NCBI RefSeq assembly: GCF_008831285.2
Contig: NC_045142.1
Span: 129,001-193,000, forward strand
DNA from: Nymphaea colorata
Taxonomy: Eukaryota > Streptophyta > Magnoliopsida > Nymphaeales > Nymphaeaceae
Direction: 5' to 3'
Length of the DNA: 64,000 bases
The notes beneath the pieces were generated by a model. The model was not told the origin of the DNA. It did not search any database and saw only the letters and a program-made list of their open reading frames with translations. Position 1 is the stretch's first letter. Each line of letters opens with the position of its first letter. Of this stretch, positions 9,960 through 62,000 are shown piece after piece. The translations under genes were made by a program, and so were the position numbers.

Positions 9960-11080
9960 GCGAAGTGCCAATGGCAGGGGAATGATCCAGTCCGACGAGA
10001 TGGGCACATCCCACAGTTAGGAAGACCTGGCCGAAGTGGTGAACAAGCTGGTTGCCGAGTAGCTACTCATGAAGAAGCGTTGGACAATGCAGTCGAGTCC
10101 TTCGAGGGAATGAGAGACGAGATGAAGACCCCACGAGAACAAATGATCGATCTTATGACCATGAATCGGTCACTGACACAGTGACTGCACTTGAAGCAGA
10201 AGTCAATGAACTTCAGGTAAACAACCACACACTACAACGACAAGTTTCTGTAGGTGGAGACGACGATCGATCAGCAACGGTCGTCGTTCAGAAGCTAGTA
10301 AAATACAATGGAAACCGAGATAGTCGAGTGATCGACAATTTTTTATTTCAACTGGAATACTATCTGGACCTGCAACGCGTTGTGAGGGACGACCTTCAGG
10401 TCAAAACAACAACTATGTTGTTTGAGGGTGATGCTGTGGCATGGTGGAAACGAAAGCGACTTGACATTCAAAAGAGGATCTGCACAATATACACTTTCGA
10501 TGATTTTCAGCGAGAATTGAGGACTTACTTCATGCCCTCGAATGCGACATGCTATGCCTATCCAATGGTCGGTGAATTGGAACACACGGGATCCTTGCGA
10601 GACGATGTAAGGACCTATTATAAACTCATGTTAGATGTGCTAGATATGCAGAAACAAGATAAACTGAACTGGTTTATTTTGGGACTTCATCTGTGGGCAT
10701 GATCTGAAGTAGAAAGGTGTAATTCAAAAACCTTGGAGGACGCTTATGTGGTAGCATAATGTTTGGCCAATACCCAGCGCAAGAGCTATACTAATACCTT
10801 CAAGCCTTTTAAGAAGTCTGACCATGGGGAAAAAAGCCTTCAAGCCTTTTAAGAAGCCTGACCATGGGGAAAAGAAAGAAGGTCGATAGGAACGTAAAGA
10901 TGAATCATCGACCCAACATCAGGTCGAGAAGAAACATTTCTTTCGTAAGAATGACAACTTCCAAAATAGAGTGTTGAAATGCTAGTTCTATGAAGGTAAG
11001 CATTTAGATAGACAATGTCCAAAGCGTCTAAACAAAGACGGCCAAGCAAGTTCTTCAAGACAATTTGCTAATGCGGCACA
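9960..11080 (+). pseudogene. Degenerate gag of the Ty3/gypsy element
   Basis: The longest open piece (10181-10702) carries a retrotransposon gag domain with EGDAVAWWKRKR and FQRELRTYFMPSNA. Coding similarity continues past its TGA (…SEVERCNSKTLEDAYVVA…), so the stop is a mutation rather than the real end. Similarity upstream (about 10065-10180, …VESFEGMRDEMKTPREQM…) is in another frame. A CCHC-type zinc knuckle of the C-x2-C-x3-H-x4-C form is recognisable at about 10979-11020, but its second Cys is Tyr and a stop lies inside it. The gag is therefore broken by several stops and frameshifts. Confidence 0.8.
10797..10876 (+). repeat. 40-bp tandem duplication inside gag
   Basis: Two adjacent 40-bp units starting CCTTCAAGCCTTTTAAGAAG differ at only a few positions. 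Because 40 is not a multiple of three, the duplication shifts the gag frame. Confidence 0.85.
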
Positions 11081-16904: not shown

Positions 16905-16984
16905 CATCTTCAGCACCCCTTCCCCTTCCCCTTCCCCTTCCCTCGGGAGAGAGCATTAGGAGGGACGGAGAAATATAAGTGACA

Positions 16985-18538
16985 ATGTCTGTGGCCACCG
17001 CCGGAGCAACGTCCACCTTCTTCGGCAGCCGCCTCCACAATGTCCACCAAGCCAATGCCAGGTTCCAGGCGAGGTTCGGATTCTTCGGTGCAGGGAAGAA
17101 GGCAGAAGAGCCGAAGAAGAAATCCGGTCCTCTCAAGAAGACGGTGGTCTCCAACAGGCCCGTCTGGTTCCCAGGGGCGAAGCCGCCGGAGTGGCTGGAT
17201 GGCAGCCTCGTGGGAGACGTAGGGTTCGACCCCTTCGGCCTGGGCAAGCCCGTCGAGTACCTGCAGTTCGACCTGGACTCGCTGGACCAGAACCTGGCCA
17301 AGAACAATGCGGGCGAGATCATCGGCACCCGCTTCGAGAGCTCCGACGTCAGGTCCACCCCGTTCCAGCCCTACAGCGAGGTTTTCGGCCTCCAACGCTT
17401 CAGGGAGTGCGAGCTCATCCACGGTCGCTGGGCAATGCTCGGTACCCTCGGCGCCATTGCCGTCGAGGCCCTCACCGGTGTCACTTGGCAAGACGCCGGC
17501 AAAGTACGTAACCTCTCTTTCTTTTAAGCACTACGTTGCCGAATGCCCCCATCCTGTCCCATTCCCATGATTTCTCCAACTTGTTTCATTCACCTTTTAA
17601 CAAGTAGTCCCACATTTGATATTTGATAGATTGTGTAGGGTATGGCAGCTCTTTGATCGGTCTGCCTAAACCTCGCCTTTGAAATGCTCCAACGCACGCA
17701 GGCAGAGTTTGTCTTCTCCCCTTCCTCTTTTCTTGGCCTCAACCCAAGATTGAAGAGAAAATAACATGTACAACTTGTAAAGGGGGAAGGTTTTATCTGT
17801 TTCCCTTCAAAGTTTGTGCCTAATTACCGTAATCCAACTGGCGTTCATGAATGTCTCGTGCCTGGAAGCATCTCCACCACACATGAAATTATATGTGTAT
17901 GATTGTGGTGATCAGCTTCTCAACGCTATTTGCACTTAATTAAAAAAATGTTGCCGTCAACATGCTATTTGCACATGTTGGTGGGGCCTGGCTACCATTT
18001 GGAGAGCAACATAATAGATAGAGGAGGGGGAAGATGTTAGATATTTTCTCGCCATCTCTTTCAATGTTGAGTCCTGATTCTTCCATCCATTGGAAAAATG
18101 AACACCCCGTAGGATTATATTTTTATACTGCATGGCAACAAGGGTATATTGAATAAGGCTAGCTAGCTGCTGACCTTAACTTGGTAATTGTTTTTAATGA
18201 ATTTGTTTGATCAGGTGGAGTTGGTGGAGGGGTCCTCATACTTGGGCCTCCCCCTCCCCTTCTCCTTAACCACACTCATATGGATCGAGGTGTTCGTGAT
18301 CGGCTACATCGAGTTCCAGAGGAATAAGGAGCTGGACCCGGAGAGGAGGGTCTACCCGGGGGGCCCCTTCGACCCGCTGGGCCTGGCCTCCGACCCGGAC
18401 AAGAAAGCGCGGCTCCAACTGGCGGAGATCAAGCACTCTCGCTTGGCCATGGTGGCGTTTCTGGGCTTCGCCGTTCAGGCCGCGACCACCGGCAAGGGGC
18501 CCCTCAACAACCTCATCGACACCTTCTCCTCCTCTTAA
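16985..18538 (+). CDS. LHCB4.3: CP29-type light-harvesting protein (LHCB4 family, short C-terminus, LHCB4.3/LHCB8-like)
   Basis: Two exons (16985-17503 and 18215-18538) join in phase 0 to give 280 aa. The N-terminal Ser/Thr/Ala-rich part (about 1-35) is a chloroplast transit peptide; the mature protein is a minor antenna of photosystem II in the thylakoid. CP29 hallmarks: WLDGSLVGD at 70-78, [19 protein letters not shown] at 125-143, helix [11 protein letters not shown] at 143-152, [12 protein letters not shown] at 173-184, [11 protein letters not shown], and helix [16 protein letters not shown] at 244-258. After TGKGPLNN the protein goes directly to LIDTFSSS, lacking about a dozen residues that typical CP29 (LHCB4.1/4.2) has before IDTFSSS. 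That, plus [10 protein letters not shown] and a Yippee gene next door, points to the LHCB4.3 (also called LHCB8) type. Exons are very GC-rich at third positions. Confidence 0.9.
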
Positions 18539-20065: not shown

Positions 20066-20165
20066 GCGCATCTACTTCTTGTATGTACATCGCTACAGAC
20101 AAACCGCCACCCACCCATTTTCCTTCCTTCCTTTTGCTTTTCCCCCTTGTGGCACCCGCTCATGT
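20066..20165 (+). repeat. Yippee upstream segment, similar to 27200-27345
   Basis: Shared words include TATGTACATCGC, CAAACCGCC, CACCCATCC/CACCCATTT, CCTTTTGCTTTT and TGGCACCC in the same order; the 27-kb copy has an extra piece in the middle. I take this as the left end of the segment later duplicated with Yippee and the ATE 3' half. Confidence 0.6.
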
Positions 20166-20482
20166 GTTATTGAAATTCATTCACATCCGTATCCCCTAGA
20201 AGAATCAAGAAATAGTTGTGCTTCTTGATGAAACAATTAAACACAGCGACGAGGTAGTCTTGGTAGATCGCAAGTTTTAAGTCATAAAACCATTAATGAG
20301 ATGACCTACTCTGAACCAAAAGAAGCCAAGCAGACCTTCTTGCGGTAATGTTGGAAATGTTTGTGGAGGCGGAAATCAGATAGCTTCTGCTCTATGGGTG
20401 GTTCCTGTTTGTGGAAAAGGTGCTTAGTCTTCGTCACTGAAACGCCTTCTAGGAAAATCTTGTCGTTTTTTGTGATTATTGA

Positions 20483-20489
20483 TATATAA
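20483..20489 (+). promoter_or_regulatory. Candidate TATA box of the Yippee-like gene
   Basis: TATATAA lies about 225 bases upstream of the ATG, followed by a leader with a (CTT)n tract at 20592-20617 and a GA-rich stretch at 20668-20712. Motif seen, use inferred. Confidence 0.4.
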
Positions 20490-20711
20490 CCTGGCCAAAT
20501 TTGGGTGTGTGACGGTTTCCTCTTTATCTCTACAATTCCTTTGAATAGAGAAACATGCAATACGTGCATACGGCACGAATCCTTTTTTTGCTCTTCTTCT
20601 TCTTCTTCTTCTTCTTCAGTTTCTTATGGAAGTGACAGAAATAGTTTGGTTGGTTCGAGGCAGAGGCGCAGAAAGAGAGAGAGATAGAGAGAGACAACGA
20701 GAGACAGAGAG

Positions 20712-23700
20712 ATGGGGAGACTACACCTCTCATACCTTGATGGGAGAATGTATACGTGCAAGTACTGCTACACCCATCTCGCCCTCGTCGATGATATTAT
20801 CTCCAAGGTTTGCGTGCTTCTTCTTCCTGTCGCCATACTCTTCTTCCTCACAGATTGATGAAAATTAGCACCCTTTCCCTGACTCACCATTTCCCAAGCC
20901 GCTCGTATCCATTTGGTTGGACACCACTATCCGGTTGATAATCAATTAGCGTTAAATAAAATAAATAGTCACGCTAAGCTGTTGTTGTTCACTGCCTCTT
21001 TGGTCTTCTTCCAAAGTGAAATTTATATGGTGGTGGTAGATTGTTAAGTGCTTCCCTCCTTTGTTGTTTATTGACGGGGATCATTTTCCCGATGATCCTA
21101 TTATTCTGCTGCATTGTTTTGACTCGTTCGGTTTTGGAACTGTAACTGAATTTCAAATTGCGAAGCTTAGTGGTTACATGTCCATTCGCGTGATTGTTTA
21201 CCCGTAGCTCGTGTAGATTAAACATGATATAGAATTGGCAATTTCAAGATTTCTAGAACTGCAAAGTCATCTTAACCTGGTGGGATCTTTGATCGTCTTA
21301 ACTTTGCCATCCAGAAAGTAACAGAAGAATATACCCCGAATAGTTGTGTATTTGTTTTTCCTCTTGGGTATCAACTAGTTGGTTGGTCCTCTTGGGAAGC
21401 CCATCCCTTTCTCATGGTTCGAATTTATTTTACTAAGCAGTGGTGAGTCTGTGCATGGGGCATTCCCTTCACATTTTTGTCTCTGGTTGTACATTTTCTG
21501 AGCTTAAAAACGCAATCATGAAGGTCTGGACTTTATGGCGATTTCTGATATTTCATTAATCAGGATAAGTTTTTGAAATGCTTGAATTTGAAAAGTTGTT
21601 AAGTTCCTGTGGCGATCTTGTAGTAGTCTTAGATCGCATAGTGCTAACTGGACGGTAGGCAGACTAACTGTTGTTATTTATGTGATTTGATCAGACATTC
21701 CACTGCAACAACGGGAAGGCGTACCTTTTCAACAAAGCGTAAGTTTATCTGATTTAAATCTTTCAGTCTCTCCTTGCTTGATATGATGGACTGTTATAAT
21801 GGCATTTTTGTACATCATCAACCTTGTCTATCCAAATGGTTTATTTTCCTGAGCACTACCTTGAGGTTTTGATATCTCAAGACTTCAGTCCCGGATATGG
21901 TTGTCAATTACAGTATCCTGGAGAAAGTTGTAGCTCTGTGTAAAGGCATAGATACTAAAATTGCAAACATTATTTAGAGAAATACAGTTTTAGTAATTGT
22001 CATTTATACTTTAAAAAAGAATTGATCCTTTACACTGTCTAGTCAATCAGCATAAAGTTCTATGTGACGTGTATACTCTTTGGATGATTTTGAATGTTGA
22101 TATTCCCAGATCCTGAAAGATAGTATGTGTTCTGCCTGTTTGTTCATAGGTGACCCAAGATTCTGTAATTTGCAGATGTGCATTTTTGCTTGCAACTTTT
22201 TTGAAAAGATTGGGCAGATGAGGGGAAAACAAGGATATTATCATATTGAACTCCATAATATACTGATAGGTCATAGGTGGTATTATAGATACTTTAAAGG
22301 CTAATGAACGATAAAATGGAAGTGGATCTTCTATATCCTCTTTGTGTAGCAATGAAGACAATGATACAAGCTTGTGCCCGACTTAGGTTTCTGTAACTTG
22401 TTCTAGTTGATCATCATTAGTTATGACACTAACTCTAAAACTTCTTACAATCTTAACCCAGTAAGGTCGATTCTGCAATTATTTTCATGTGCAACCAACT
22501 TACATGCTGAACCTGGTATTTCATATTAGGCATGATATTTTAACTGACAGATGGAATTCTACTGAAAATAAAACAGCCTTCATGGAACTGTCAGGTTAAA
22601 CCTCTTTGCCCTTATGTACTGCAGAAGAAACTCACAGGATTTATAAGTGAAAAACTGAAACAGGTCTGCAGTTTTACACATCTCGCATTTGCTTTTATCA
22701 TAGATTCCATGACTGGACTCGCTTTGAGACTAATGCTTAGGTGGGATTAGCTGGCCTATACTGACCTGAGAAAAATACCAGATTTGAATATCTCAAATAT
22801 CTGGTTAACAGAATAAAAACCAAATAGCAAATATTAATTGCAGAAACCTGTCAAGTTCTTTTGAAATGTTAAAAACAGAAACATGGAGCTTAGATACCTG
22901 ACATAGTGAACCTTAGTGGTCCTAGCACTAAACATGTATCTACACACAGCAACATTGGTGGATGACTAGGTCAAACTACTATCACCCGAAAGTCTTAGGG
23001 ATAGAAATAGATTCTCATAAAGGATGATGAAAGTTGTGATATTGTTTAGAATCAATATTTGGTGTGGCCTATCAAGATCAGTTAGTGATTTTGGACACTT
23101 TGATGCTCTGGTGTTCATTGTGATAAAAATTTTCAGACTTCATAACCAGCATCAGAGAAGCCAAGACAGTGGTGGTGTTTGTCATCTTCACTGTGCTTAA
23201 ACCTTGAGTCAGCAACAAGCAGAATAGAAACCTATGGTAAGGAGTGGGAGCTGTTTTATTGGACTGTAACCAACATAAGGCATTGCAGCATCTCCTGTGA
23301 TGGTTCTCCATTATCAAGAAACCTATGTAACGTGGACATATTTTTGGATTCAGTCAATTTTGACTGAGTCCATGATTGCTCAAAATTTAGTGCTTTTTTT
23401 TTTTTTAATTTCACTGTGTATATTTATGCTGAAGGGCCTTTGACCGAAGTTGAAAGCTCTTTTCCTGCTGCCGTCTATCTCCAGCGTCTAAGCAGTCTTT
23501 GATTTCCAGCATCTGACTAGCTGCTTCTTTCTCCAGCGAGCGATGACTGTATTTAAAATCTTATTGTTCGTTATACATATATATAGACATAAGTTTTTTG
23601 AAATTACTCTGCACCCTAGCAAGAAACACATAGCATACCTGAACTTTTTTGAAGTTATGGATATGGTTGCATTGACAGTTGCATTTCTGGTTGGTGGTGA

Positions 23701-25376
23701 AGCATTTTATATACAACTTGCCCGTAAGTTTAGATTTAATGTTTCAGAAAGTGAAAACAGCCAAAGCTGGTTAGTAATGTCTTATTGCTGTTTAGAACTT
23801 GGCAAGGCAATTTGCAAAAACTTTTGAGGGCCATTATGTTTCCCAACACTAAAATCTCGCCCATGTTCTTTTGACTCCAGGGCATCAATACAAGTAAACT
23901 AATATTTGGTATGCAATGGGAATCATGCAATAATACTGAGATCATTTTTGAATTCTTAGGTTCTGAAAAGTAAAAAGGTTCTGCACAAGAATGTTCGGGA
24001 AGCAACAACCCTAAAGAAGTAAATATATAATGCATAAGTTGCATCACGTATAATGAACAATACTAAATGCAGAAGCAGCACTTAAAGGAAAAAAAACATG
24101 TGAAATGTTAAGAAAAATGTGACGTTTTAAGAATTGCAACCTTACTTTCAATATAAAGGTATCTCTATATATAAAAGTCATCAAAAGGCTGGTAAGCACA
24201 TTTTAAAGGTTTAAGTCATATAGGCATCAAGTGCCATGGCCCATGTGTACCATATCATTAAATGTATAAAACTATGCAGCAATTGGTTCAGTAATCTTGA
24301 TTTATCATTCCTGAATAAGGGAATTTTTGTAGTTCAGTGTCAGATTCCTGAGTGTTGATTGCTTTTTACTTTGTTGGAGAGTAAGGAAATGACTGCTACT
24401 GGAATTCTCTTCCAGAATAATTTTTTTCCCCCCATGATATTCAGGTTCTTTGCAAAATGCTAGTCTGTGCTCTATGGAAATGTTTTAACGCTGTTATCTT
24501 AGCCAGTCTGGCTAAGCTTAGTACAAGAAAATAGGCTAACTATGCTCTTTATAACTGAGATATTATGTTTTTGTTATGTTTATCTTAGTTAGTGTGACTA
24601 GCCTGTTTATGAAGCTCTGACAAATGTCGAATCCAATTGGTGAAAACGAAAGCTAGTAGGAGATTCAGTCAGACATCTATGGTAGGAGTTATAGATGCAG
24701 CCCATTTATTATTCTTTAGATGAGCGTGGTAGTAGAACAAAGAAAACACATTTAGCAGATAGACGAAGACCATGTGTCAATAAGGATAGTTGATGCACAT
24801 AGAAAATAAAAAATGTAGAAACAATTCTTCATTCTGCATTTCATGGAGTCTGATTCGTGATTTGCTTGTCTAACTGAATAAAACAGTTGTCAGGTAGTTG
24901 TCTTGAGACACTTGTCCGCATTCATTTGTTTCCTATGCTTATTCTGACTTTGGCTTTTTCTGATAGTGTAAATGTCTCTCTGGGGGAGAAGGCTGAGCGA
25001 ATGATGACAACTGGATTGCATACTGTTGCTGATCTATTTTGCATTGCTTGTGGATCCATTGTTGGATGGAAATATGTAAGGTCACAAGACTAGTTGGTAT
25101 GCTTTATTTGCCAGCTTACATATAAATTGGTGAGTGATTTGTTGGCAGGAGGTTGCTCCTGATAGGATTCAGAAGTACAAGGAGGGCAAGTACATATTGG
25201 TGATGTAAGGATGTGTCCTGTCTTGTCTATCTCCCATGCTGATTTTGGCTGCATGGAGTTAGCTCATTTTATTCTTGGTAAGCAGGAGGAAGGTGGTTGA
25301 TTTCGACAGAACCAACTTTGGGGGAGGCAACGAATCACAAGCAGGAGCGAGCGATGCAGATGATGCTGGATATTAA
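20712..25376 (+). CDS. Yippee-like zinc-binding protein, five exons
   Basis: Exons 20712-20807, 21695-21738, 24967-25075, 25149-25204 and 25286-25376 join in frame to 131 aa, the normal length for the family. The start MGRL is the family's usual N-terminus. Two CxxC pairs that would bind one zinc are present: Cys16/Cys19 (TCKYC) and Cys72/Cys75 (FCIACGS). Other family signatures: [56 protein letters not shown]. The last exon encodes a family-typical acidic tail (SDADDAGY). At the exon 4/5 junction the usual Leu-Glu-Arg is read as Leu-Val-Met, an unusual change. Plant Yippee proteins are small nuclear/cytosolic proteins with a cereblon-like (CULT/MSS4-type) fold and poorly known function. Intron 2 is long (3.2 kb), and its 3' part is shared with the duplicated copy downstream. 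Confidence 0.88.
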
Positions 25377-27188
25377 GCACCTAGAATTCAACGTCCTCAA
25401 CTGTTTGGATACATCTTAAGATTGCAAACATGCAAATTTCAACTCCTATGGTCTAACCTCTGAAAACTTGGAGCCACCGGCTTTGGCTTTGTACAAATCT
25501 TGCTGATACCGCGGAAGTAGCTGGTCTGCAAGCACCACAAAACTGCCATAACTTTAAGCCTGGTTCCCAGCTATACTAGGAGAAATGTGCATTTACAAAA
25601 CAATGTCTAACCCTATTTACACCAAAATGTTTACATCTCTTGATACCCAGGATCTTCGTGCCTTTGAAGGTTAGTTGAATCTCCTCAAAAAGGTCTATCC
25701 CACTAGGTCAGGCCCGAATTTTATTTGATCCCTTTGGTTCACAGGCTCCGGAGTCCTCCTTTCTTTTTCACCCAGAATAACGACCCAATGAAATCATAAC
25801 AAAAAATTCCTTTATTGGAGCCTCCGGTTTCTGGTTGAATATTGATCTGCACGTCAAAAGAAGCTTATACGATGCCTTGGATTCGTAGACGCGAAGCCCA
25901 ACGTCGTTGTCGGACATTTTAGTAGCCTTTTCATTGTTTTCGTTCTGTGCGAACATGAATTTAAACTCATTCTCAACATCGGGCGGAAACTTAAAATGAC
26001 TTTTGTTTTGGGTGAATTCATCACCTGCTTACCTTAAAAAGACATAAAAGAGGGCCTTTTGGTTCAGAGATGTCCTCGAATAAGTGACTGGAACCAATAA
26101 CAAACACCGCATTGAAGTTGAACTCTGTTTTTATATAGACATTGTTCACTTAGTTATGTAGGACGTTTCTGACATAAGCTGCATCTCTAGCATGCAGATG
26201 GATTAACCTAGCCAATTTCGAGTAATAGATCCAATTAAAACCAGAATAAGTGATGTCTTGATGATTTAGACACAAATATCTCCACAAAATCTGAGCCTTA
26301 GGCCTTAGTGGATCACTTGCATCGTAACCTAGCGTTGCATTTAAGTATCTTTAGAACAGAGCTCATTGTGGAAATAAGATTGTCAATGCTTGCATCAAAC
26401 AGCCATATGCTTCCAGACATTTCTTTTTCATTTGTAAAACCGATATGGCCATAAACCGCATTGGATTTTGACCTGCAACTCTATGTGGCATAAGCTTTGA
26501 AGATACTAGAAACGTTTTGTGCATCACCCTCCAAGTCCCAACAGCTAGGTCTTTTACGAAATTCAGAACACAAGCAACCAATAGGAATGTATGCAATACC
26601 GCATCTGCAGCTAACATTTCAGCACGCTCTTCAATTACATAGACAGTTTGGAAAGTATCTTCTAGTAATCCTGCTTCAGTCATCAGCTACTCGGGAAAAT
26701 TCACTGTGCGAAAGACTCTGCCACAGAAAATGTGAATCAAGCCAATAAATCATTCGTTCAGACAATGCAGAACCAACGACAGTCTTGTATCCATGAAGCT
26801 GCATTTTCAACGAGCGAATGCACTTGATTGGCCCAAAAGCTTGAACCAGATCCTCCCAACGAAGTAAAAAGAGATGTAAGCTTCGTGACAGCATAACTTT
26901 GTCACCCTCAATGAGAACTCTAAATCCTGAAGAACGATGAGAACTTCGTAGTCTATTCAGAAAAAAGTAAACTTGAAATCCTGCACTAATATTTGAACAT
27001 GAAAATGCACTAATCGGTGTTTACCTTAGATAGCAGACTTTTGTTACTTATTTTTATAGTGTCGATGTCCACATTCTACACTTCATCGAGCAATTCACTA
27101 CTTGTCTCAAAATCAGAGTCATCGTCAGCACCTGAATCCGGACAATCAAACTCAACGTTCAATTGTTCGTCACCATCAGCAAGAACTT
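23785..27188. repeat. Tandem segmental duplication, unit 1
   Basis: Resembles 27382-31290 over the 3' part of Yippee intron 2, Yippee exons 3-5, the intergenic space and the ATE 3' end. Matching landmarks: TTTAGAACTTGGCAAGGCA at about 23793 and 27399; Yippee exon 3 at 24967 and 29038; ACACAAATATCTCCACAAAA near 26270 and 30474; ATE last exon starting 26852 and 30959. Unit 1 holds the intact 3' half of Yippee but only a fragment of ATE. Confidence 0.88.
26676..27188 (-). pseudogene. Truncated ATE (arginyl-tRNA transferase) copy
   Basis: Minus-strand sequence matches the last two exons of the full ATE gene at 30840-36491. The exon-5 part (27188 down to about 27040) encodes DGDEQLNVEFDCPDSGADD and then stops at a TAG where the full gene reads through. 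The last-exon part begins at 26852 after the same acceptor (GGGAG/GATCTGG) and encodes the ATE C-terminus DLVQAFGP…VVGSALSERMIYWLD. The normal stop is mutated (TGA to TCA), adding 19 extra residues before the next stop at 26676. No N-terminal exons exist here. It is a duplication remnant and not a working enzyme. Confidence 0.85.
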
Positions 27189-27381
27189 GAGGTGTGGGTT
27201 CACCATCTATCTGCATATGTACATCGCCATAAACAAACCGCCCCCCACCCATCCTTGCAACAAATTTACCTGCCACTGCTTCTTAGACCGCCACTGCCCC
27301 TCTTTTCTTTCTCCCTTTTGCTTTTTTTCTCCTTATGGCACCCTTTAGCCTCACGCAACCAAATATTCGTTCGCACTATAT
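27189..27381 (+). other. Duplication junction with Yippee promoter remnant
   Basis: ATE similarity ends at about 27188. From about 27200 to 27345 the sequence resembles the region upstream of the intact Yippee gene (20066-20165), and from about 27382 it resembles the middle of Yippee intron 2 (from about 23785). Thus the second Yippee copy still has part of its upstream region, but roughly 3.6 kb with exons 1 and 2 has been deleted. Confidence 0.65.
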
Positions 27382-27967
27382 GGTCTCATTATTATTTAGA
27401 ACTTGGCAAGGCAAGTTGCAAGAACTGCTGGAGGTCCATTCGGTTCTTCTAAACTAAAATCTTGCCCATGTCCTTTTGTCTCCAAAGGCACCAACACAGT
27501 AAATTAAATTGTGGCATGCAAAGGGAATCAAACAATGATACTGAGATCATATTTAAAATCTTAGATTATGAAAAATGAAGAGGCAAAACGGTAGAACTTC
27601 TGCACAAGAATGTTGAGAAAGTGACAACAGTAAAAAGTAGAAATGTAATGCATAAGATGCATAACTTTCTCTAATGAACAACACCAAATTCAGAAGCAGC
27701 ATTCCAAAAAAAAGAAAAAAGTAAACACATGGAGTGCTTTAAAAAAGTGTGAAGTTTACAAATAGCAAGCTTACTTTCAATGTGAAGGTATATATAAGTA
27801 AAAAACATGAAAAGACCAACACATACTTTTTAAAGGTTTAAGTCATGTAAGCCTCAAGTGCATGTATATCATGTCACTGAATGTATAGAAGACTATACAC
27901 TATGCATAACTTAGTTTAGCAATATTGATCCATGATTCCTGAATAAGGGGATTTTTGTACTTAGTTC

Positions 27968-28424
27968 TGTAACCCCCCAAAAGTTTAGTCTCGTATTGAA
28001 GATTGTGAGGGATCTTCAAGGACTTATAAAAAGAGTTATTAAATAGATGGTTGTCCTAGTTCTTAACCTTTTTGGGGTTGGAGCTGAAACTGCTAGGGGG
28101 TGGGCTGGGATCTACCGAACCATGAGCCCGAGTCCATGAGTGGATCAGGTTGTTACAATGATATCAGAGCCGATTCAACACTCAGACCTAGGGTACCACA
28201 CGCGCATATGTGTGTGCCTTAAGAAGGGTGGATTGTAGTGCTCCAAAAGTTTAGTCCTGTATCGAAGATTCTGAGGGATCTTCAAGGGTTTATAAAATGG
28301 GTTATTAAATAGATGGTTGTCATGGTTTTTAATCTTTTTGGGGTTGAAGCAAAAACTGCTAGGGGGCGGGTTGGGATCCATTGAAATCAGGGGCCCAAGC
28401 GCAGGAGTGGGTCGAGTTGTTACA
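27968..28424 (+). mobile_element. TRIM: small non-coding LTR retrotransposon
   Basis: Two LTR-like direct repeats, 27968-28157 (190 bp) and 28234-28424 (191 bp), both start TGTA and end GTTGTTACA. Each contains GATCTTCAAGG, TTATTAAATAGATGGTTGTC and AACTGCTAGGGGG. Between them is only 76 bp holding a primer-binding site and a purine-rich AAGAAGGGTGGAT just before the 3' LTR. No coding capacity, as in TRIM elements. Flanks AGTTC and AGTTT look like a 5-bp target duplication with one change. The LTRs differ at many positions, so the insertion is old. The paralogous site in unit 1 (about 24330-24350) lacks it. Confidence 0.85.
28159..28171 (+). other. Primer-binding site of the TRIM element
   Basis: TGATATCAGAGCC follows the 5' LTR after a single base and differs by one base from the canonical tRNA-Met site TGGTATCAGAGCC. 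Confidence 0.75.
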
Positions 28425-29037
28425 AGTTTAGAGTCAGATTCCTGTCTCTTTTTTACTGGTTTAATGAGTATGACAATGACTGGTATTTTTCTTCCAAAGA
28501 AATGCTTCTTTTTTTTTTTGTAATGTTGAGGTTCTTTCTAAGGCATGTTCTCTGGACTGCAACATTTTAACGCTTGTATCTTAGCTGGTCTGGCTAGCGT
28601 AGTACAAGAAATTAGACTATCTAGGCTCTTTATAACTGATATAATATGAATTTATGATGTAAGTCATAGCTAGTCTGACTAGCATATTTATGAAGCTCTC
28701 ACGAATGTTTAATCCTATCACTAAACACAATAGTTTGTGGGAGTTTCAGTTAGTCAAATTCTCCCTCCAATTCCCTGTTGTAGGAGTTATAGATGTAGAT
28801 GTGGACCCTTTATTATTGTTTAGATGGGCAAGGTGATAGAACAAGAAGAAACCTTTAGCAGTTAGATGAAAGCCATGTGTCAATACGGATACTTGATGGA
28901 CACAAAAGAGATTATAGGCAATTCTACATTCTGCATTCATGAAAAAGTTGTCATTTGTCAAGTAGTTGACCAGAGATGTTCCTTGTGTTGATTGATTTCC
29001 TATGCTTCTTGTGACTTACTTTGGATTTTTTTAATAG

Positions 29038-29416
29038 TGTAAATGTCCTGCTGGGGATGAAGAAAGTGAGCATGATGATGACTGGATTGCATGATCCATT
29101 GTGGGATGGAAATATGTAAGATCACAGGACTAGTTGGTAATGCTTTCTTTGCCAGCTCACATATATAAACTAATAATTGGTTTGTCGGCAGGAGGTTGCT
29201 CCTGATTAGACTCAGAAGTATTAGGAGGGCAAGTACATAGTGGAGAAGGATTTGCCCTCTCCTGGCTCTCTTTCATGCTGATTTCGAACTGCATGGAGTT
29301 AACTCATTTTGTTATTGGTAAGCAGGAAGAAGGTTGTTGATTTTGATGGAACTAACTACTGGGTAAGCAGCGAAGCACAAGCAGGTGGGAGTGATGCCGA
29401 TGATGCTGGATGTTAA
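29038..29416 (+). pseudogene. Broken Yippee-like copy (exons 3-5 only)
   Basis: Counterparts of Yippee exons 3 (29038-29115), 4 (from 29192) and 5 (29326-29416) are recognisable with their splice sites. Exon 3 has lost about 30 bases that encode the second CxxC zinc pair (compare the intact [12 protein letters not shown] region), so no zinc site can form. Exon 4 has in-frame TAG codons after APD and after QKY. Exons 1 and 2 are missing. Exon 5 still has the acidic DADDAG tail. It is a duplication remnant. Confidence 0.88.
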
Positions 29417-30839
29417 GTGCCGAGCATTCAGCATTCCTAGAAGTCAGTTTTGTCGTACATTCTTGCCTTTCTGAGGTCCTCAAACTGTTTGGATACTTCT
29501 TAAACATGCAAACTTCAACTCCTATGGACTATTCTCTAGTAACTTGGAGTCCTCGGCTTTATAACTTCGAACAGATTTTGCTGTTTCCTTGGAAGTAGCT
29601 GGTGTGGAAGCACAGAAATGTTATCATAATGTGAAGCTTGGTTCCTGGCCATATTAGGAGAAACATGCATTTAACAGAACAAGGTCTAACCTTATTTACA
29701 CAAAATCTTACGATGTCTTGGTACCAGGATCTTCGAGCCTTGAAGTTTAGCTGAATCTTCTTAAAAAAGAAGTTGAAATTCCACCTAAAAGGCATTAACT
29801 CTATATCAATACAAGGGAAAAGGCCCAACACTGTCAGATGTGCATTGAGTGGTTTATGATATCCTCGAGGATCTGTCTCGCTTGACTTGGCAGAAAGGGG
29901 TGCTTATTTCCTGTGCAGATGTTTTCAACTCGTTCTCATGTAAGACTCCGTGATCGTGGATTGTCCTTCCTAGATGAATGAGGCCCTCGCCTTCTGCGTT
30001 AGCTAATATTTTCCCTTTAAAATAGGGCCCAGTTTTGGCGAGCCTTTTTTATCTTTGCAATAAAAGAAAAGTCAGGGCTGGATTTTATTTGACCCCTTTC
30101 AATTAGATCTTGGGATGACTGGTTTTGTTTTCCACCAAGAACAATAACGGCATTGTAATCATAACCCTAAAAGGGCTACATAAAGAACTGGGCCGTATTT
30201 TAACGGTATACCCTAAAAGGGCTACATAAAAAACTGGGCCGACCTTGTTAGGTGATACTTCTATCGAGTTTATGTTGAAACTTCCGAGATGTCCTCAAAT
30301 AAGGGGCTGGATCTAACAACATACGCGGCATCTTAAGATCGACTTTGTTTTAAGTTGAACTTTATTCATTCCTTGTGACCTTTCGAACATAAGCTAGATC
30401 TCTAGCATCCAATTGGAACCTAATCAATTTCGAGAAAGAAGTCCAATTAGGAACCGAACAGGTAATGATTTAGACACAAATATCTCCACAAAATCTGTCC
30501 AATTAATGGATCATCGGGATCCTAATCTAGCGTTGCACACAAGCATCTTGAGAACAGATCACACTGTAGAATAAGACTGTCAATGTAACTCTGTGACGTA
30601 CACTGTAAAAATCATAGAAACATTTTGTGAACCACCCTCCAAATCCCAACTCCTAGGTCTTTTACGAAATTTAGAACACAAGCAATTAATAGGAATGCAC
30701 GCGGTACCTCATCTGCAGCTAGCATCACAGAACAGTCTCCAATTACATAGACAATTTGGAGGGCATCTTGTAGCAGTCCGCTTCAACCAACAGCTATTCG
30801 GGAAAATTCACTGTGAGAAAGATCCTACGGCAGAGAACG

Positions 30840-33800
30840 TCAATCAAGCAAATAAATCATTCGTTTAGACAATGCAGAACCAACGACAGTCATATATCTA
30901 TGAAGCTGCATTTTCAATGAGTCGATGCCCTTGCTTGGGCCAAAAGCTTGAACCAGATCCTTCAAGTAAAGAAAAGAAGTTAGCTTCTTGACTGCATAAA
31001 AAGCAAATGCACCATGTAAGCGAGAACTCTAGATACTGAAGAACAATGAAAACTCTCTAGTCTATTCAAAACAAAAGGAACTTGAATCCTATGCCAATAT
31101 TCGAACATGAAAATGCATAACGATATTTACCTTAAATAGAAGGGTTTTGTTACTCATTCTTATTTTTATATTGTTGACATCCCCATGTTCCACTTCATTG
31201 AGCAACTCACTACTTGTGTTATCATCAGCACCTGAATCAGAGCAATCAAACTCAACCATCAATTGTTCGTCACCATCAGAAAGAACTTCGTCTTCTTCTT
31301 CCTCAGAGATTAAAGAAGGTTGTGATGCAGAGTGCGCCTCGGTTTGGCAGGGCAAGTCACTCTCCTTTTCCAAGCCGATGAAATCTGACAAGACCACATA
31401 TGGTTTTTTATCCAGCAAAGGCTTTGCTATATGGAATGGCACCCACCTACAATAACCAATACACATTTCACGCGACAGACATTTTCTCAAGACAAATAAA
31501 AAAAAATGTCCATGTCACATAAACCCCAGACATATAAATAAATAAATAAATATATATATATATATATATATATATGAACCTGGATTGCAACAGCCAGGTT
31601 TTGATGGGTGGTAATCCGTATGGGCCACACACACCTGGAGAGAGAAGGGAAGCAAAAGAGAAGCACTGGGATCCCCACGTGCAACGGGCAGCCGCACAGC
31701 CAGGATCCCACAGTATGCAGGGATCCAGGCTCTCTCTCCCCTCGTATGTGCCTCTCTGTGTGTATGTGTACATATATATACATGTACGCTCAAAATAGTT
31801 ATAAGTTAGCACCTTCCATGAATGAGTGGACAAAATAGCACATTTAGAGAAGGGAAGATCAAAATAGAAAATTGATCAACAATTACATGTCCATTATCAG
31901 GTTTCGAGGTTGTGCCATGTTGGTACAATACAACTGACATGACAATGACATGATGCAGGGTTAACAGCAGCCTCAGCAAAGCTCAAGACAAGCAGAAAAA
32001 TGAGTTATGAGGAGCCATAGATACATATTCTCCTCCTCAGCCTTTGGAGTTAAGGTTGGACTTGGACAAAACTAGGTTGGTTGTACTCCAATATGAACTC
32101 TTGTTATTTGTTCGCTTAATTAAGTCATGCCAAATGAACCTTTCCAGGATCCAGATTAACCTACAATTTGAATTTAACTGCCTGCTGTTGGTGCAGGTTC
32201 CTAGAACATTAAAACACGGTGTTCTATAAAACTGCTTCACTTTTGGGAAAGATTCACGCTACACGTGTCAGTGTTCATGTTGCCAAATGCCTCCTTAAGG
32301 AACAACCTCCAAAAGAGCCAAAGAAATTTCTTATAAGAAGCTTGGTCCATAGCCCCAGCCTTCACCCTACCTTCTATACTTCTAACTGCAGCATTATACA
32401 TTCTCAGTGCACACTTATAAGAACGCTAAACTTTACCAGGCCCAGTCTTTAACTTAAGGACAAAGGAGACTGACTTATCCAGAGATAACATTCAAATAGT
32501 CATGGTGCCATCTCATACCATATGCAAGCATAATTACACGTATCAAATTATGGGCAAAAAGATGAGACTTACTGATAACGAAGAGGACATAGAAGCTCTG
32601 AAGGTGAATAAGATGCCTTATATCTCATTTTGCCGCATTCATGGATGTAATATCCAAGATAATAATACTGAATGCTGGGACACAGAATTCCTGTCTCCTT
32701 GACCCAATTAATTTCCTGCAGAGCTGAGTACTTACCGAGTGACAAAAAGGCAAAATCTGGGTCCCAGAATAAATATTTGCTAGACAGACATCTAGGAAGA
32801 ACATCAACCACACCAACTGCAACAAGCTTCCCGTCGATCAAATACTGTTGATGGAAAGAACCAAAACCACAAGACGGGACTGTGCCGTCACCAGCAGGTG
32901 GAACAAAAATAAGAGGGGATTCCACCAAAAATCTTCTATATAAGCTTTCGTCCAAATGATCAGGCTTATCATTGTGCACCTTAATTTGGTACCTTTGATA
33001 CAGAGCAAATTCCTCAGGATCGAAACTTGATCTGCTCATACGAATCTCAAGTTTTTTCTTTTTAACTTGAGATGGGCTCTTGTCATCAAGAAGGCATTTT
33101 CGCTTGGCATTGGCTGCATTACCTTGAGGAGATTTTACAGAGGTAACCACAGTGCAAGACAGTTTATCTGAACTAGCTTGCTTTCTTTCTGAGTAAAAGT
33201 TTAGATGGCCATTACATGCTCTGACTGACAAGTCAGAAAATTCACCTTGCAGATCCATTGCCTCAGCCAGTTTCTCTGCTACATAAGCAGGTGTAAATTC
33301 TTTTTCTACTGATGACCGCCTTATAGCTGCTGCTATCTGAAAAGCAATGCTGCAAGTGTACAGCAAATCTCTAGCAATATTATGCAGCTTCTTCTTCATC
33401 TGCGGAACTACCCTCTTGACAGAAGCTTGGGGAAAGTTAACTGTAGAAGGTAAAACACTATGCTTAATGCATGTGCTAACAGCTATATCAATGTTAACAG
33501 ATAAGTTCCTGTCATACTGATCCAACTCATGTGTAATACTACAAGTATCAGTAGAAGATTCCTTCATCAACGTTTCTGAAGCCCAAATATTTGGAGATTG
33601 ATTGCTACTGTCAGTGGATAAAGCATTAGGCGCAGCTTGCTGGCCATTTGCCAAATCTGCCTTCTTTAAGCAAAGATTACCATCTAAGAACCTGCATATT
33701 GGTTCAATCCAGCATGAGACCCTCACAAAGTTGCAACAAAAGAAAGGGCCAACAGGCTGGTGCCAACAATACAAAACAGATGGCAAACAATGTCTTCGAA

Positions 33801-36491
33801 TAAGAAAAAAAAAAAGTTCCGTTGTAATTAATACTTATCAAGCAAGAAATGCATATGGATGACAAATTACCTTTGCATTCGTCTAGATACACGTGCTTGC
33901 TCCTTGGCAGCAACAAACTCATCCGCTTTAAGACGAATGGTATACAATCTGCAGCATGTTCTTTCCATGTCAGGTTTGTAAAGGAACATGCCTGATCTCC
34001 TCCATCCACGATCAAGAAGTTCTGTAAACATGGAAATGTTGGGACAGGCAGGAATAGTAAATAATCTGAATATACATCACTTCAACTTATTGCAATAAGA
34101 AAATATACTACAATCCAGATGAACAATCTGAAAAAATAAAGGAACCTAATAGGTTAATTGTAAGGAAAAGCATCAGATGTTGGTCAAACAAAACCAATAA
34201 GGAAACCACAGAGCAAAAGAGAACTGGTTTTATATAAAAAACTAACGAAAACTACCACAACAAATAAATGAATACCACTCATCAAATTGTATATCTATGG
34301 ATTTGGATTTTATCATTCTTATAGTATAATAATATGTGTACAACCATGCAACAAATGATATGGTTCATTGACTGTGCTATGGCATACAATCAAACTAAGC
34401 ACATAACAGGATGTACTTCCAAGTTTACTTCTCTAAGAAGTTCACAAAAAATACATTTTTTCGAAAAAAACGCAATAAATTAAATTGCCGTTTCAAACTT
34501 TAAAAAAAATGTGTTTTTTTGGAAAAAAAAACGTTAAAAACACATTAAAAACGTGTTTTTAATGTGTTTCTACTTTCTAACGCGTTTTTTCGTGTTCTTT
34601 TTCACTTTTTATTTTTTATTTGTTGCAAATCTAATTATGTTTTGATGTGTGTCATTAGTTTCTCACTTATTTTATTTTCCCCCATTTTTAGTTTTTAAAA
34701 ATTTTTAATTTACCATATTTTTTCCGTTTTTTTCAAGTTCGCCGTATTATATCCGAGAAAAACCCCGCCGTTTAAAACTCCGAAACGTTATTTGTAACTA
34801 TGCTTCCAACACTGGAAGATTTGCATATGATCCTCTAAAGAAAGGGAGGAGTGAGAAAACATGCCCCAGATTTACAAGATGGAAGTTTTCATTCGCTTAC
34901 CATCTAGCTCCCACATCCTTATTTAGCAGGCCAACAAAACAGCAATGTAAAACACAATAATACGGTTGACTTAAAAACTTGACTTAAAACTTGGAGAGAA
35001 CTAGTAAACTTTGTTATTAGAAACCCAAATTGATCAATGTACAGCAATTGTGTAAAAAAGACAGACCTTGATAGTCATCCACTGTGATTCTGTCGGCCCC
35101 TAACCCTGAGGAAATCAGTGACAGATAAAACATGTCAAGAGAACACAAAGAATCATATAAAAAAGAAAATCCTAAATTGTTAGGAAGGTGCACTAAAACG
35201 TACAACTGAAGGCCTGCTTATGCAAATAACAAAAGGTAATAATGAGCTTAGCAAGCCTATGTCACACAGGTGCTGATGGGAGCATGAGTGCAGCATTTTT
35301 CAGAATAATATGGGTGTAGAAGTGGCGAGTATATATATATATATATATACACACACACAACAAACAATCAAACTAGCAATAAAATGGTTTACAAGTAATA
35401 AAAATAACAATCAACGACTAACAAACTATGATTTTATCAATGATTCAGTGGAAAATAAGGTAAATTGCTTGTTGCTACACCCATGTCTCACCAGCAACCG
35501 ACATGTCTCGGGTGCAGCAACCTTCTTGAAGAGTCTGTGTTGCTTAGGATCAAGCTCAAGACAGACAGCGTGAGCTTTGAGTGAACAGTGGCCAAGATGA
35601 AACCATCAGTGCAGAAGAAACCTAATCCAAGAGCTCATCTAAATTAGCCATTCGGCAAGTGTAGCTTGAGGATAAAAGAAACAGTCGTTACTCGTATCTC
35701 TAGCAAATAGGAACACCTCGCAAGATCTCAAATATTTCTACCAGAGAGCCCACTAGAAGAGAGATATCTTCATGAGGTTACAGACTTACCCATTCTCCCA
35801 AATTCTAATTGAATCATAGGAAGGACTACTATCTCAAGAAGTAAATTTCCTTGTGAATCCTTTGTATTTAGGCTCCATCAGCATATAGGTGCGAATCATG
35901 AAGCAGAGAATCATCTATTGGACATTAGCAGAAAACCTTTTATGACAGGAAGAAACATGTCAGCATACCTTGGTGAATGAGACTCGAAAGAGAAATTCAT
36001 TAACTTTACAAGTGTACAATAGACTATTTATTATTCAAGGCCCACGAACAAGCAAGGGGAACCTGATTTTTATAGTAAAAAGTATTACACGATTGGGCAA
36101 ACTCTGTGCACATGAAAATCCAGCCAATCCTCTCGCCATGTTAAGATCTCCTTCAATTGCTTAATACCTTAAAAAGAAAACGTAAAATTTCGTAACTCGA
36201 AAAGAAAGGTGCGGAGACGATAATTCGACCTACCCGCGAACGATTGCCACTACAACAAAGCCATCATCGAATTCAGCAAATGGATGGCAAACAAAGCTGA
36301 TGAAGCTAAAAAAGAGAAAAGAAACCCTAAAAAAAGGAAGGAAGAGAAACAGGGATACCGTGAGAGAGGCTCGTTCGGCCGCCTGATCTGCAATAACCGC
36401 AGGAACTCCTGTACAACCCATAGTCCGTGATGACGCTCTCTCCAGCGCCTCGCCTGCTGCTGCTGGCACCGTGGTCCGATCGTCCGTCCAT
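30840..36491 (-). CDS. ATE1: Arginyl-tRNA--protein transferase (ATE), six exons
   Basis: Minus-strand exons 36491-36359, 35105-35067, 34022-33872, 33691-32573, 31446-31131 and 30959-30840 join in frame to 625 aa (Arabidopsis ATE1 is about 630). ATE adds Arg from Arg-tRNA to N-terminal Asp/Glu/oxidised Cys, marking proteins for the N-degron pathway. Seen: N-terminal SSCGYCRSGGRTSLSHG (Cys motif of the ATE N-domain), DRGWRRSG and TCCRLYTIRLKADEF (exon 3), and SSFDPEEFALYQRYQIKVHN with FGSFHQQYLIDGKLVAVGV in the GNAT-like catalytic part (exon 4). Then YLFWDPDFAFLSLGKYSALQ, YYYLGYYIHECGKMRYKASY, PSELLCPLR (exon 4) and WVPF, then an acidic linker (EEEEDEVLSDGDEQ) and the C-terminal VVGSALSKRMIY helix. 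ATG chosen as the only in-frame Met before CGYC. Oddities: Cys-Cys-Pro is Cys-Cys-Arg, and LSERM is LSKRM. Whether it is ATE1 or ATE2 cannot be decided. Confidence 0.92.
31537..31574. repeat. (AATA)n/(TA)n microsatellite in ATE intron 4
   Basis: A few AAAT-type units run into about twelve TA units. Seen directly; it makes several spurious open frames on the minus strand. Confidence 0.85.
34440..34790. repeat. AT-rich block with perfect palindrome in ATE intron 2
   Basis: 15-bp arms at 34538-34552 and 34555-34569 are exact reverse complements with only GT between. The block around them has A- and T-runs with CG-containing words such as GCCGTTTCAAAC (about 34482) and GCCGTTTAAAAC (about 34768), and TTTTTTCGAAAAAAACG faces CCGTTTTTTTC. 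It may be a small DNA element of unknown family; no coding potential. Confidence 0.55.
35329..35359. repeat. (TA)n(CA)n microsatellite in ATE intron 1
   Basis: TA units followed by a short CA tract. Seen directly. Confidence 0.85.
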
Positions 36492-41600: not shown

Positions 41601-42874
41601 ACTAGGAATCCCCAAGAAAAAAAGAAAGTCCAATCAAGCAGGAATTGTTAATAAAATTTATAATCAAGAGGCCCAAGAAGAAGAACAAGGAAGAGGTGGA
41701 ACATCGTCGGACAAATAAAATGAGAGAAGGGCACAAGAAAAATCAAGTTAAAGGGCAGCAAAGAAATAATAATACCAGTGCGTTTGTCTATCCAAGGAGA
41801 TATCAAGAAGGTGGGAACCCTGACGCCCAAGCGGTCAAACTTGAAGTAGAAAGGGTCGGGACCGACGATGCCGTCCGGGTTGGGAACGTGGGAGACGGGC
41901 GTGGGAACATGGTCGTAGAAGCCACCGTGCTCGTCGTAGGTGATGAGCAGCAGGGTCTCATTCCACTGGGGGCTGGCCCTCAGCGTCTCGTAGACCTCCT
42001 TCACGAACCTCTGACCCCTGGCGACATCGTGAGAAGGGTGGTCGTCGTTGGCCGGGAAGGCCTTGACGTCGAAGTACCGCTGCTCAATGACGGCGTAATT
42101 TGGGAGCCTCCCCATCCTGGCGTGCAGACGGAAGGAGAGTTTGTAAGAGTGGAAGTGGACGATGTGCTTCAGCTTCCTGAGGCTCTTGAAGAAGAGGGTG
42201 GCGGGGATGTTCTGGTAGTAAATCCCGAAGCTCAGTCCGTTCTCATCCAGCGAGTCGAAGATGGTCTTCTGGGGGAACCCGTGGATGAGGTCCTTCCGGA
42301 CGTTGCTGGACGCCCCGTGGGAGGTAGCGGAGTGCACGTAGAACCGGTTCGGCTGCGTTGACGCCGGGACCGACGCGAACCACCGGTCGAGGACGGCGAA
42401 CTCGTCGGCCAAGGCCGTGTAGACAGGGAGCAGCGACGGCTTGAAGCCGCTCATGACAATCTTGGGCATCTCCTCGCTCATGTTGCTGGCCTGTTGCACG
42501 AAGCCGTTCATGGGAGCGGGGTTGGCGGAGGTATCCTCCGACCCAAAAATCTGCTCTCGGATGGCCTGGATGGAGTGGCCAGGGTCGGCATCCACGAACT
42601 CGGCATCATCGGTGACGAAGACGGTGGGCGACTCCTCGTCGAACGCGGAGTAGCGGTTGAACTCCCTTCCGGTCAGCCCGTCGATTTCCGGCCGGCTGGA
42701 TTTGAGCCAACCCAATATGTGGTCGAAGGACCGGTTCTCCATAACCAGAACAACGACCGTCTTGATGGGACCCTTGATCTCATGCCTCCTGGACAAGCAG
42801 CCGCTGGGCAAGGAGGCGAACACCAAGATCTCCACTAACACCCACGCCACCAACATAACCCGGCGGCCCTGCAT
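38686..42874 (-). CDS. NPC1: Non-specific phospholipase C, NPC1-like, three exons
   Basis: Minus-strand exons 42874-41776, 39610-39434 and 39008-38686 join in frame to 532 aa; Arabidopsis NPC1 is about 533. The ATG was chosen because [20 protein letters not shown] is a signal peptide start; a longer in-frame extension upstream has no support. Phosphoesterase-family motifs: [11 protein letters not shown] at 46-56, [42 protein letters not shown], and SPWIDK near the end of exon 1. Exon 2 carries [19 protein letters not shown] and [10 protein letters not shown], exon 3 [15 protein letters not shown] and the C-terminal [11 protein letters not shown]. These match NPC1 more closely than NPC2/NPC6 as I remember them. 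The enzyme hydrolyses common phospholipids to diacylglycerol, probably in the secretory pathway/ER. No defects seen. Intron 1 is 2.2 kb without recognisable insert. Confidence 0.92.
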
Positions 42875-43088
42875 CTTCTCCGGGAGGACACCCCGGAGAA
42901 TCAGAGAACAGAAAGAAGAGGAGCGGTAGAGAGAGAGACAGGCGAAGCACTTTTTTGCTTTTCCTTTCCCTCCGTTTTTTCCGTCCGTCTCCAATGCACA
43001 TATACCAGGACTTATCTATAGGAACGGCAGTAGGGAGGTCGAAAAAAAATACGCGAAGGAGGAAAGGTGCCGGCAATATCGATGGTGG

Positions 43089-59097: not shown

Positions 59098-62000
59098 TTA
59101 AAACAGATCATGCAGCTTCTTAAGTTTGTCCCGTCTCCACTTCGGTAGATTGTAAAATGCTTCCTTGGCCATTCCGAATACTCCCATAAACTCCTCAGCA
59201 GATAAATATGCCTGCAACCACGAAATACAAAAAATGTTCGCATAAGAAACTGCCTTACTATTCACATTATCATAGGATGCACCTAGCCAGTGTCTCTCAG
59301 AAAACGAATGGTCGAGCAACAAGGAAAACAAATCAAGATAGGATCAAACAGCCAAAAATTGCAGTTATTTTGCATCACATGTCGATCTAAGAGTGCCTAC
59401 AAGCTTGTTTTTGCTCAGGAAGCAACATCTAACATAAATTATGACTAATCATTGTGCTAAATAGCCGAAGAATACCTCTCTTTTAGTTATCTCGACACCT
59501 ATTATTTGGTCATTGCTGGAAACTCTTAACTTTTCATAAGGAAATGTTTGCAAGCCAACTGATAGTGCATCATTGCCATTTGTCAGGATTTCTTCGGTCG
59601 AAGATACACTTGCCTCTTCTTTTGCTGGAACAGAATCCAAAAACCCCTCTGCCGAGTGCATATATACATTTGTGTAAGTCAAGGGAAAAACATATTTCAT
59701 AGAGAAGTTTATTCACCAAAAACACAAATGCACTGCAACAAAACATTACCTTTTGATTGTTTCATTCCACAGGATTCGGAGCTTTCAATTCCAGGTGAAA
59801 TGCTGGAAGTCTTTCCCAGGTTTAAGCTGTCTTCAGAAGATTTAACAAAGAGATTCCTGACAACAGGTGGGGTGGACAATTGAGGGGCAATTGATGCCTC
59901 AAACCTTGAGGTTAATGCAGTAAATGCTGGGGATTTGCTTCTTGGTGCAGTCCTCTCAGAAGTGGTTGATTTGCTTCTGGAGCGCTGTGACGATTTACTA
60001 GTATCACCCGCTCTATATGCTCTAGGAATCTTTTTTGGTGTCTGTCTAGAAGCACTAAAGTTACCAAATCATTTATAGCAACTCCATTCAAAAGTTAACT
60101 GATAATCATCTACCGGAACTCCATTCAGTAACATGAAAAGTATCTTTCTTTTCTCTTATGAAGTATGAACACTAGTAACATGAGAAGTATCTATCTTTCT
60201 CTAATGAACACTACTGCACGAAAGAAAATTAGAAAGAATCACAATGTCAAAACAAAAATATAGTTTATGGTTCCTTAAAATGACAATTTGTAATTTCCAC
60301 AAAAAACAAAAAGTAGGCCTTTATGTCTTAAAAAAAGCTGTAAGTTTTCCATTTTATTCAGTATTAACTTTAATTATGAACCATCGAAAGTTCCAAACCA
60401 TGACTTACTTCCAGCTTAGGGCCAAGTCCCTTCACAACTGCCAGTTTTCTCTCAAATGAGTTCCCATGCATCTGCAGAAGTGCATAGAAAAGCTTAAAGT
60501 TATCTACTGAACAAAACATGGACATGAAACATCCACCTAGAACTGTTTTCACATGCAAAATTTTACTCCACTCTTGCTGCACTAGCAATTAACTAAAACA
60601 GCTTGCGTTACTGAGGATAGATGTATGGAATATGCACCACCTTCATAATGCCGTACAATGGTAGAATGCAAGGACAGTATACTCACAGATGCCTTTGAAG
60701 TATCCCATGAGAAGAAACGGGTGAAGAATTTTGGCTCATATCCTTCCATAACAACATGTATTGCAGTCTCTAAGGACATCCCTTCCAGGAGAATATCTAG
60801 GTCAATAAATTTCTGTTGGTTCAAAGAAGCAAAAAAGCATTAGTAAAAGTCAGTGGAACCACATAACATTCACAAGCATGCCAAAGGGCATTTAAATAAC
60901 AAAAATTTCAGGCATGAGCTTCTATAAAAATCTATTCATCAAAACAAAAGACTCAAGGGTATATACCTTAGCTATTGAGAAAGCTGATTCTTTGGATCTA
61001 AATTTAGCATGCTGCCCTATCCATACATAAAGTTCAGTATGGCAATTAAGTATAAACACATCTTCAGTGGTCAAGTCATCTTGACTGAAGTTAAATATTT
61101 CTTTGACCTGAAACACCACCATCACATTGTCAATAAGCGCACTTCTATGCACAAAATGCAACAGTTCAATCAAATGCTACAGAATGCAAATGCATTATAA
61201 AATGATTATAAAGATGAAGCTCTTTATTGAAAGTACAACTTAAGGATTAACATTTCCAGATTTCACCCACAAACAAAGGCTTCATAAGAACATTGAGACA
61301 ACTCCTGAAGCAGCAGTTGTTGGTGACAAGCTAATAGATGAGTATTAAATAACCATTGTAAGAGACAAGGCTTCTCTTACTAAAATACTAGGAATGAATT
61401 ACATGGAAGCAGGAGAAGAATGAATCATGTGTTTGCATTGTGGCATGATATCTAAGAAATCAGATCATGTAGATATAACAGTAATTATTTGACAGCAGCC
61501 ACACCCCAAACACATATTTTATAGAACTGGGATGTTTGTATTGTGGCATGATATCTCAGAAAGCATATCATGTAGATATAACAGTAATTATTTGGCAGCA
61601 GCCACAATAACCCCAAACACATAAAACTATATAGAACTGGGATGTCATTAGGATGATAACTGGGAACTACCTTAAGATCACCTGGAAATGAAGAGTCCAC
61701 AAAGGCACCAGTAACAAGAAGAAAAACCAAAATATTTGTTAGTTTCTCCTTGGATGTAAAGAATTGCAAAACAAGAAATAACTATATCATCCATAAAAAA
61801 GAGAAATAATCACAGTCAAAAGAATGAAGCTAACCTTCTATACCAATACAGACAAATAAATGTGGATCCTCAACAAATTCCTTAGTATCCTTCTCCTTTG
61901 GATAGTCCATCTTCCCCCCAATTGCATCCCAAAAGATGTCTGGTTCACTACCCTCCTTCACTTGTATAGGTTGTTTCTTAGGCTGTCAAGAATCACCAGA

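Follow-up and report, generated by a model that had tools for sequence, protein, structure and literature searches.

Two pseudogenes of different origin at a Yippee-ATE locus of Nymphaea colorata, probably from one partial tandem duplication

Background

Duplicated (non-processed) pseudogenes of plants, as described in PMC7935947, are recognized by tandem position, retained introns, retained homology in the flanks and disabling mutations. The locus described here shares these features, with one difference from the usual case in that account: a single event appears to have produced two pseudogenes that derive from different neighbouring genes, one encoding a Yippee protein and the other ATE, an arginyl-tRNA-protein transferase. 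The same source discusses double-strand-break repair as a route to plant pseudogenes, chiefly for dispersed copies. For ATE itself, a review (PMC5452128) gives one gene per plant species in general, names Arabidopsis, Populus and Sorghum as having duplications, and describes the Sorghum paralogue as possessing ATE-C only and as likely not a functional arginyltransferase. The partial ATE copy reported here is similar to the Sorghum paralogue in being incomplete, but the Sorghum copy keeps ATE-C, whereas ours keeps just the tail beyond ATE_C (PMC5452128). A further parallel is PUB15/ARM1 in the Triticeae, also a partial duplication of a gene; that copy is reported to be functional (PMC6092874), whereas the pieces here show no sign of function. 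A literature search found no paper in which Yippee, ATE1 and plant occur alongside tandem duplication.

Organization of the locus

The window, a stretch of 64,000 nucleotides from the N. colorata genome, contains four gene pieces that run from left to right as an intact Yippee gene (+), an ATE fragment (-), a broken Yippee gene (+) and an intact ATE gene (-). This order had been proposed in a first-pass annotation of the sequence, and it is borne out by gene models and domain matches. Exon borders of the Yippee and ATE models were set by hand from reading frame and splice sites, without transcripts. The pieces, and the two copies to which they belong, are as follows.

20712-25376, + strand: intact Yippee gene; 5 exons (20712-20807, 21695-21738, 24967-25075, 25149-25204, 25286-25376), 131 aa, GT-AG introns, open frame
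26736-27188, - strand: ATE 3' fragment, made up of half of exon 5 (27025-27188) and of exon 6 (from 26852 downwards)
27216-27343, + strand: Yippee upstream remnant in copy 2, from BLAST matches, alignment and a shuffle test
29038-29416, + strand: what remains of exons 3-5 of the Yippee pseudogene; exons 1-2 absent, lesions in exons 3 and 4
30840-36491, - strand: intact ATE gene; 6 exons (36359-36491, 35067-35105, 33871-34021, 32573-33691, 31131-31446, 30840-30959), 625 aa, GT-AG introns, open frame
about 20069-27188: copy 1; whole Yippee gene and 3' part of ATE, in same-order BLAST blocks with copy 2; left edge uncertain, about 20069 to 20082
27204-31288: copy 2; Yippee pseudogene and 3' part of the intact ATE gene; start approximate, inside unmatched junction sequence
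27189-27203: duplication junction; about 15 bp of filler or decayed sequence, without a match at either parent end

Both outer genes have the domains expected of them. The left Yippee protein matches PF03226 Yippee-Mis18 (E 3.1e-12, 47 bits against a curated cut-off of 26.6), and the intact ATE contains, in one open frame, PF04376 ATE_N (E 3.6e-23) and PF04377 ATE_C (E 1.5e-44), the latter ending at residue 476; the best of 6 distinct PDB matches to ATE is 8tzv, 'Isoform ATE1-2 of Arginyl-tRNA--protein transferase 1' (E 1.3e-75). A scan of viral contigs with the Yippee protein found no relative, as neither of the 2 stretches that matched the pattern was confirmed.

We consider it very probable that this arrangement arose by a single partial tandem duplication of a segment that began about 640 bp ahead of the Yippee start codon and ended midway through ATE exon 5. 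Such an event explains the order of the pieces, the sharp ends of similarity, the similarity that extends beyond exons and the fact that both halves of the unit show equal pooled divergence. It is also what the first-pass annotation had suggested, and the collinear blocks, the edges and the equal distances described below support it.

Similarity and divergence between the copies

As expected of a partial tandem duplication, the copies lie side by side in the same orientation and are collinear in coding and non-coding sequence. The same-order matches, all direct, were found by self-BLAST of the window, with two further ones from a more sensitive run.

20082-20118/27216-27252: Yippee upstream block, 89%, E 4e-6 (window self-BLAST)
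20103-20157/27287-27343: further upstream match, 77% (more sensitive run)
23779-24334/27383-27962: 73%, E 1e-93 (window self-BLAST)
24483-25691/28565-29767: 71%, E 0.0 (window self-BLAST)
25707-25800/30071-30165: spacer match, 70%, E 9e-8 (more sensitive run)
26063-26388/30282-30585: 72%, E 2e-42 (window self-BLAST)
26474-27188/30584-31288: 79%, E 3e-171 (window self-BLAST)

In the Yippee half, the blocks thus span the upstream region, the sequence from within intron 2 to exon 5 and the 3' flank; they then take in part of the spacer and, in ATE, the 3' region as far as half of exon 5. Similarity beyond the exons, on which the initial proposal had been made to depend, was found by self-BLAST and alignment in the promoter, the introns and part of the spacer, and identity in the aligned parts is 74-85% for introns, 77-79% for alignable flanks and 80-90% for exons. 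The upstream match is short, but its similarity score of 55 is reached by none of 1000 dinucleotide-preserving shuffles, the best of which scores 35, while the whole upstream stretch in a forced alignment gives just 58% identity over 131 columns. Landmarks in the spacer had been said to match in order; this stands for 25707-25800 and its counterpart, but most of 25692-26062 no longer aligns (44% in a forced alignment, with that one local match of 70%). Copy 2 also has no counterpart of 26389-26473, and the copies now differ in length, with 4.1 kb for copy 2 and 7.1 kb for copy 1.

If the unit was duplicated at one time, its two halves should have diverged to the same extent, and pooled non-coding sequence agrees with this prediction: K2P is 0.286 in the Yippee half (95% 0.255-0.320, 1523 sites) and 0.278 in the ATE half (0.236-0.327, 724 sites), both sets excluding the Yippee upstream block, the unalignable spacer and columns at an LTR element in copy 2. 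Neutral divergence is therefore equal along the unit at the level of the pooled values, and two separate duplications of different age are unsupported. Single non-coding stretches vary from 0.174 to 0.326 (unalignable spacer excluded), with values of 0.322, 0.174 and 0.188 for Yippee introns 2, 3 and 4 and 0.326 for ATE intron 5.

Pooled exon distances are lower, at 0.200 for Yippee (0.138-0.268, 223 sites) and 0.139 for ATE (0.091-0.187, 269 sites), as expected where one member of each pair remained under constraint. This constraint is clear for ATE but weakly shown for Yippee, where the exon interval overlaps the non-coding one and where introns 3 and 4 are no more diverged than exons 3 and 5 (exon K2P 0.206, 0.142 and 0.232 for exons 3, 4 and 5). 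Differences are spread evenly over the three codon positions, with 11, 14 and 14 of 73, 74 and 76 in Yippee exons 3-5 and 12, 9 and 13 of 89, 90 and 90 in the ATE fragment, as expected if the other member of each pair drifts freely; the counts are pairwise and take the changes of both copies together. The ATE count was kept within the breakpoint; the next 15 columns beyond it hold 10 differences.

Edges of the unit and the junction

Similarity ends sharply at the left edge, at the junction and at the right edge. On the right it stops at 31288, in the middle of ATE exon 5 (31131-31446), and beyond 31290 it is not clearly above that of shuffled sequence, with a similarity score of 18 where 300 dinucleotide shuffles average 17.2 and reach at most 25. 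Left of 20060 the score of 21 is reached by 19/300 plain shuffles and is not clearly above that of shuffled sequence. The extent of 20066-31446 given in the first-pass annotation is thus close on the left (about 20069-20082) but too long on the right, where the unit ends at 31288 and 31446 marks the 5' border of ATE exon 5.

At the junction, the ATE piece of copy 1 ends at 27188 and Yippee upstream sequence restarts about 15 bp further on. No repeat common to both breakpoints was found, as two 400-bp regions around them share short words only (best E 1.8), and recombination between breakpoint repeats is accordingly unsupported. The unmatched 15 bp and the lack of a common repeat make end joining likelier than repeat recombination, and suggest that the junction was made by non-homologous end joining. 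Retroposition is ruled out by the introns kept in the copies.

A TRIM-like element in copy 2

The Yippee pseudogene is interrupted, in an intron, by a short LTR element.

27968-28424, + strand: TRIM-like LTR element within an intron of the Yippee pseudogene, its LTRs at 27968-28157 and 28234-28424

The element is 457 bp in total, with LTRs of 190 and 191 bp, an internal part of 76 bp and ends TGTA...TACA, and at 28162, beside the 5' LTR, lies the primer-binding-like sequence TATCAGAGCC, which we take to be a PBS motif. We likewise presume, from its general features, that it belongs with the TRIMs (terminal-repeat retrotransposons in miniature), which it resembles in its short LTRs of about 190 bp, the PBS-like site by the 5' LTR and the tiny internal part; it differs in that its flanks, AGTTC and AGTTT, agree at 4/5 bases only. 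A related LTR-like stretch, 67% identical, occurs at 62114-62308.

Copy 1 keeps the empty site, where two of the BLAST blocks overlap at 24331-24334, and this uninterrupted site indicates that the element most likely inserted after the duplication. The LTRs are 82% identical (K2P 0.212, 0.142-0.293), a distance below the 0.28 between the copies but with overlapping intervals, so that the order of events is read from the empty site and not from an LTR clock.

Fate of the inner pieces and alternative histories

The two inner pieces are disabled in different ways. In the Yippee pseudogene, exon 3 has a 31-nt deletion, and exon 4 has two stops in the ancestral frame and has lost its splice donor to a 4-nt deletion; upstream of these, copy 2 jumps from the counterpart of 20157 straight to that of 23779, so that the region of Yippee exons 1-2 is gone. 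Under a single duplication, the inner Yippee would have had at most about 640 bp of upstream sequence at the start, and would probably have decayed because its promoter was clipped and it was redundant, with a loss from copy 2 of up to about 3.6 kb that covered exons 1-2.

The same final map could also be reached in two steps, by a larger tandem duplication that gave two complete Yippee/ATE pairs and a later deletion of the 5' half of the left ATE and of all that followed, as far as but not including the promoter of the right Yippee. Such a history sits well with the other large deletion that copy 2 underwent anyway, but it requires one extra event, and self-BLAST of the window finds neither the 5' half of ATE nor the outer flanks a second time, although two steps do not strictly predict such a copy; we regard this history as unlikely.

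With one partial duplication as the preferred history, the ATE fragment was most likely truncated at birth by the breakpoint, and so was never whole and never possessed the catalytic domains. It begins at about residue 534 of 625, beyond ATE_C, and by its domains does not qualify as ATE; exon 5 contains an in-frame TAG, the normal stop codon of exon 6 is lost, and the exon 6 frame matched 0 families in Pfam. The inner ATE piece would thus have been dead on arrival, without a promoter, exons 1-4 or the catalytic domain. The first-pass annotation held that each copy had lost a different partner, which is right for the inner Yippee, which decayed, but in the preferred history the ATE piece was cut off by the breakpoint itself and not by later loss. 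Conversely, nothing was taken from the native upstream flank of the left Yippee or from the 5' exons of the right ATE, and hence both genes stayed intact.

Both inner pieces are presumably without function. A contrary view would be that they were retained for what they do, for example if transcription through the ATE fragment or the Yippee pseudogene yielded antisense or small RNA with a tuning effect on the intact genes, or if a truncated peptide were made. A precedent is offered by PUB15/ARM1 of the Triticeae, a partial duplication that is conserved and reported as a source of pathogen resistance (PMC6092874), and the ATE fragment still has the exon 5 splice donor and the exon 6 acceptor. 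Given the in-frame stop, the lost terminal stop, the absence of a catalytic domain and the lack of third-codon-position bias, we think it very improbable that the pieces were retained in this way, and just as improbable that transcription of the remnants serves to regulate the intact ATE or Yippee, whether in cis or by way of small RNAs, with the duplication kept for that use. Heterozygous plant assemblies can contain haplotype duplication, but two haplotypes set side by side are hardly credible here, as about 23% non-coding divergence, differing lesions, partial units, a junction within an exon and an LTR element in one copy with 18% LTR divergence are far beyond allelic difference.

The Yippee-ATE neighbourhood and the rest of the window

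To the left of Yippee lies a chlorophyll a/b-binding protein gene (16979-18538, +), presumably CP29/Lhcb4-like, of which 16979-17527 matches PF00504 (E 1.2e-18) and a second part, 18188-18538, was spotted by eye among the open frames. Together with the intron-bearing Yippee and ATE genes, this gene points to plant nuclear DNA as the source of the window. In Arabidopsis, consecutive locus numbers denote neighbouring genes. One source (PMC9210943) lists seven Arabidopsis genes with a Yippee-Mis18 domain, AT3G11230 among them, while ATE2 is given as AT3G11240 (PMC11531839), and from these consecutive numbers the neighbourhood of Yippee and ATE may be old in plants; a literature search did not find At3g11230 and At3g11240 named together. 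LHCB4.2 is named together with At3g08940 in the literature, and AT3G08990 is a Yippee-domain gene (PMC9210943), which makes an old Lhcb4-Yippee-ATE neighbourhood possible.

Elsewhere in the window, a 455-aa open frame at 41651-43015 (-) has a phosphoesterase domain (PF04185, E 4.6e-97). We take this to be, probably, a plant non-specific phospholipase C gene. Weak similarity to retrotransposon gag occurs at 10073-10699 (+; PF03732, E 1.7e-4, and PF19259, both below cut-off), and 61430-61645 is a tandem direct repeat with a unit of about 110 bp, 88% identical. An Rfam scan of the whole window at the gathering threshold gave 0 matches.

Implications

The duplication is old, cleanly preserved and well explained as an event of an ordinary kind. 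The locus illustrates clearly how two kinds of pseudogene, one truncated at birth and the other decayed later, can come from one partial tandem duplication, and the LTR insertion present in one copy supplies the order of events. For the annotation of this genome, the consequence is a practical one: automated calls at the locus may list a spurious extra ATE or Yippee gene.
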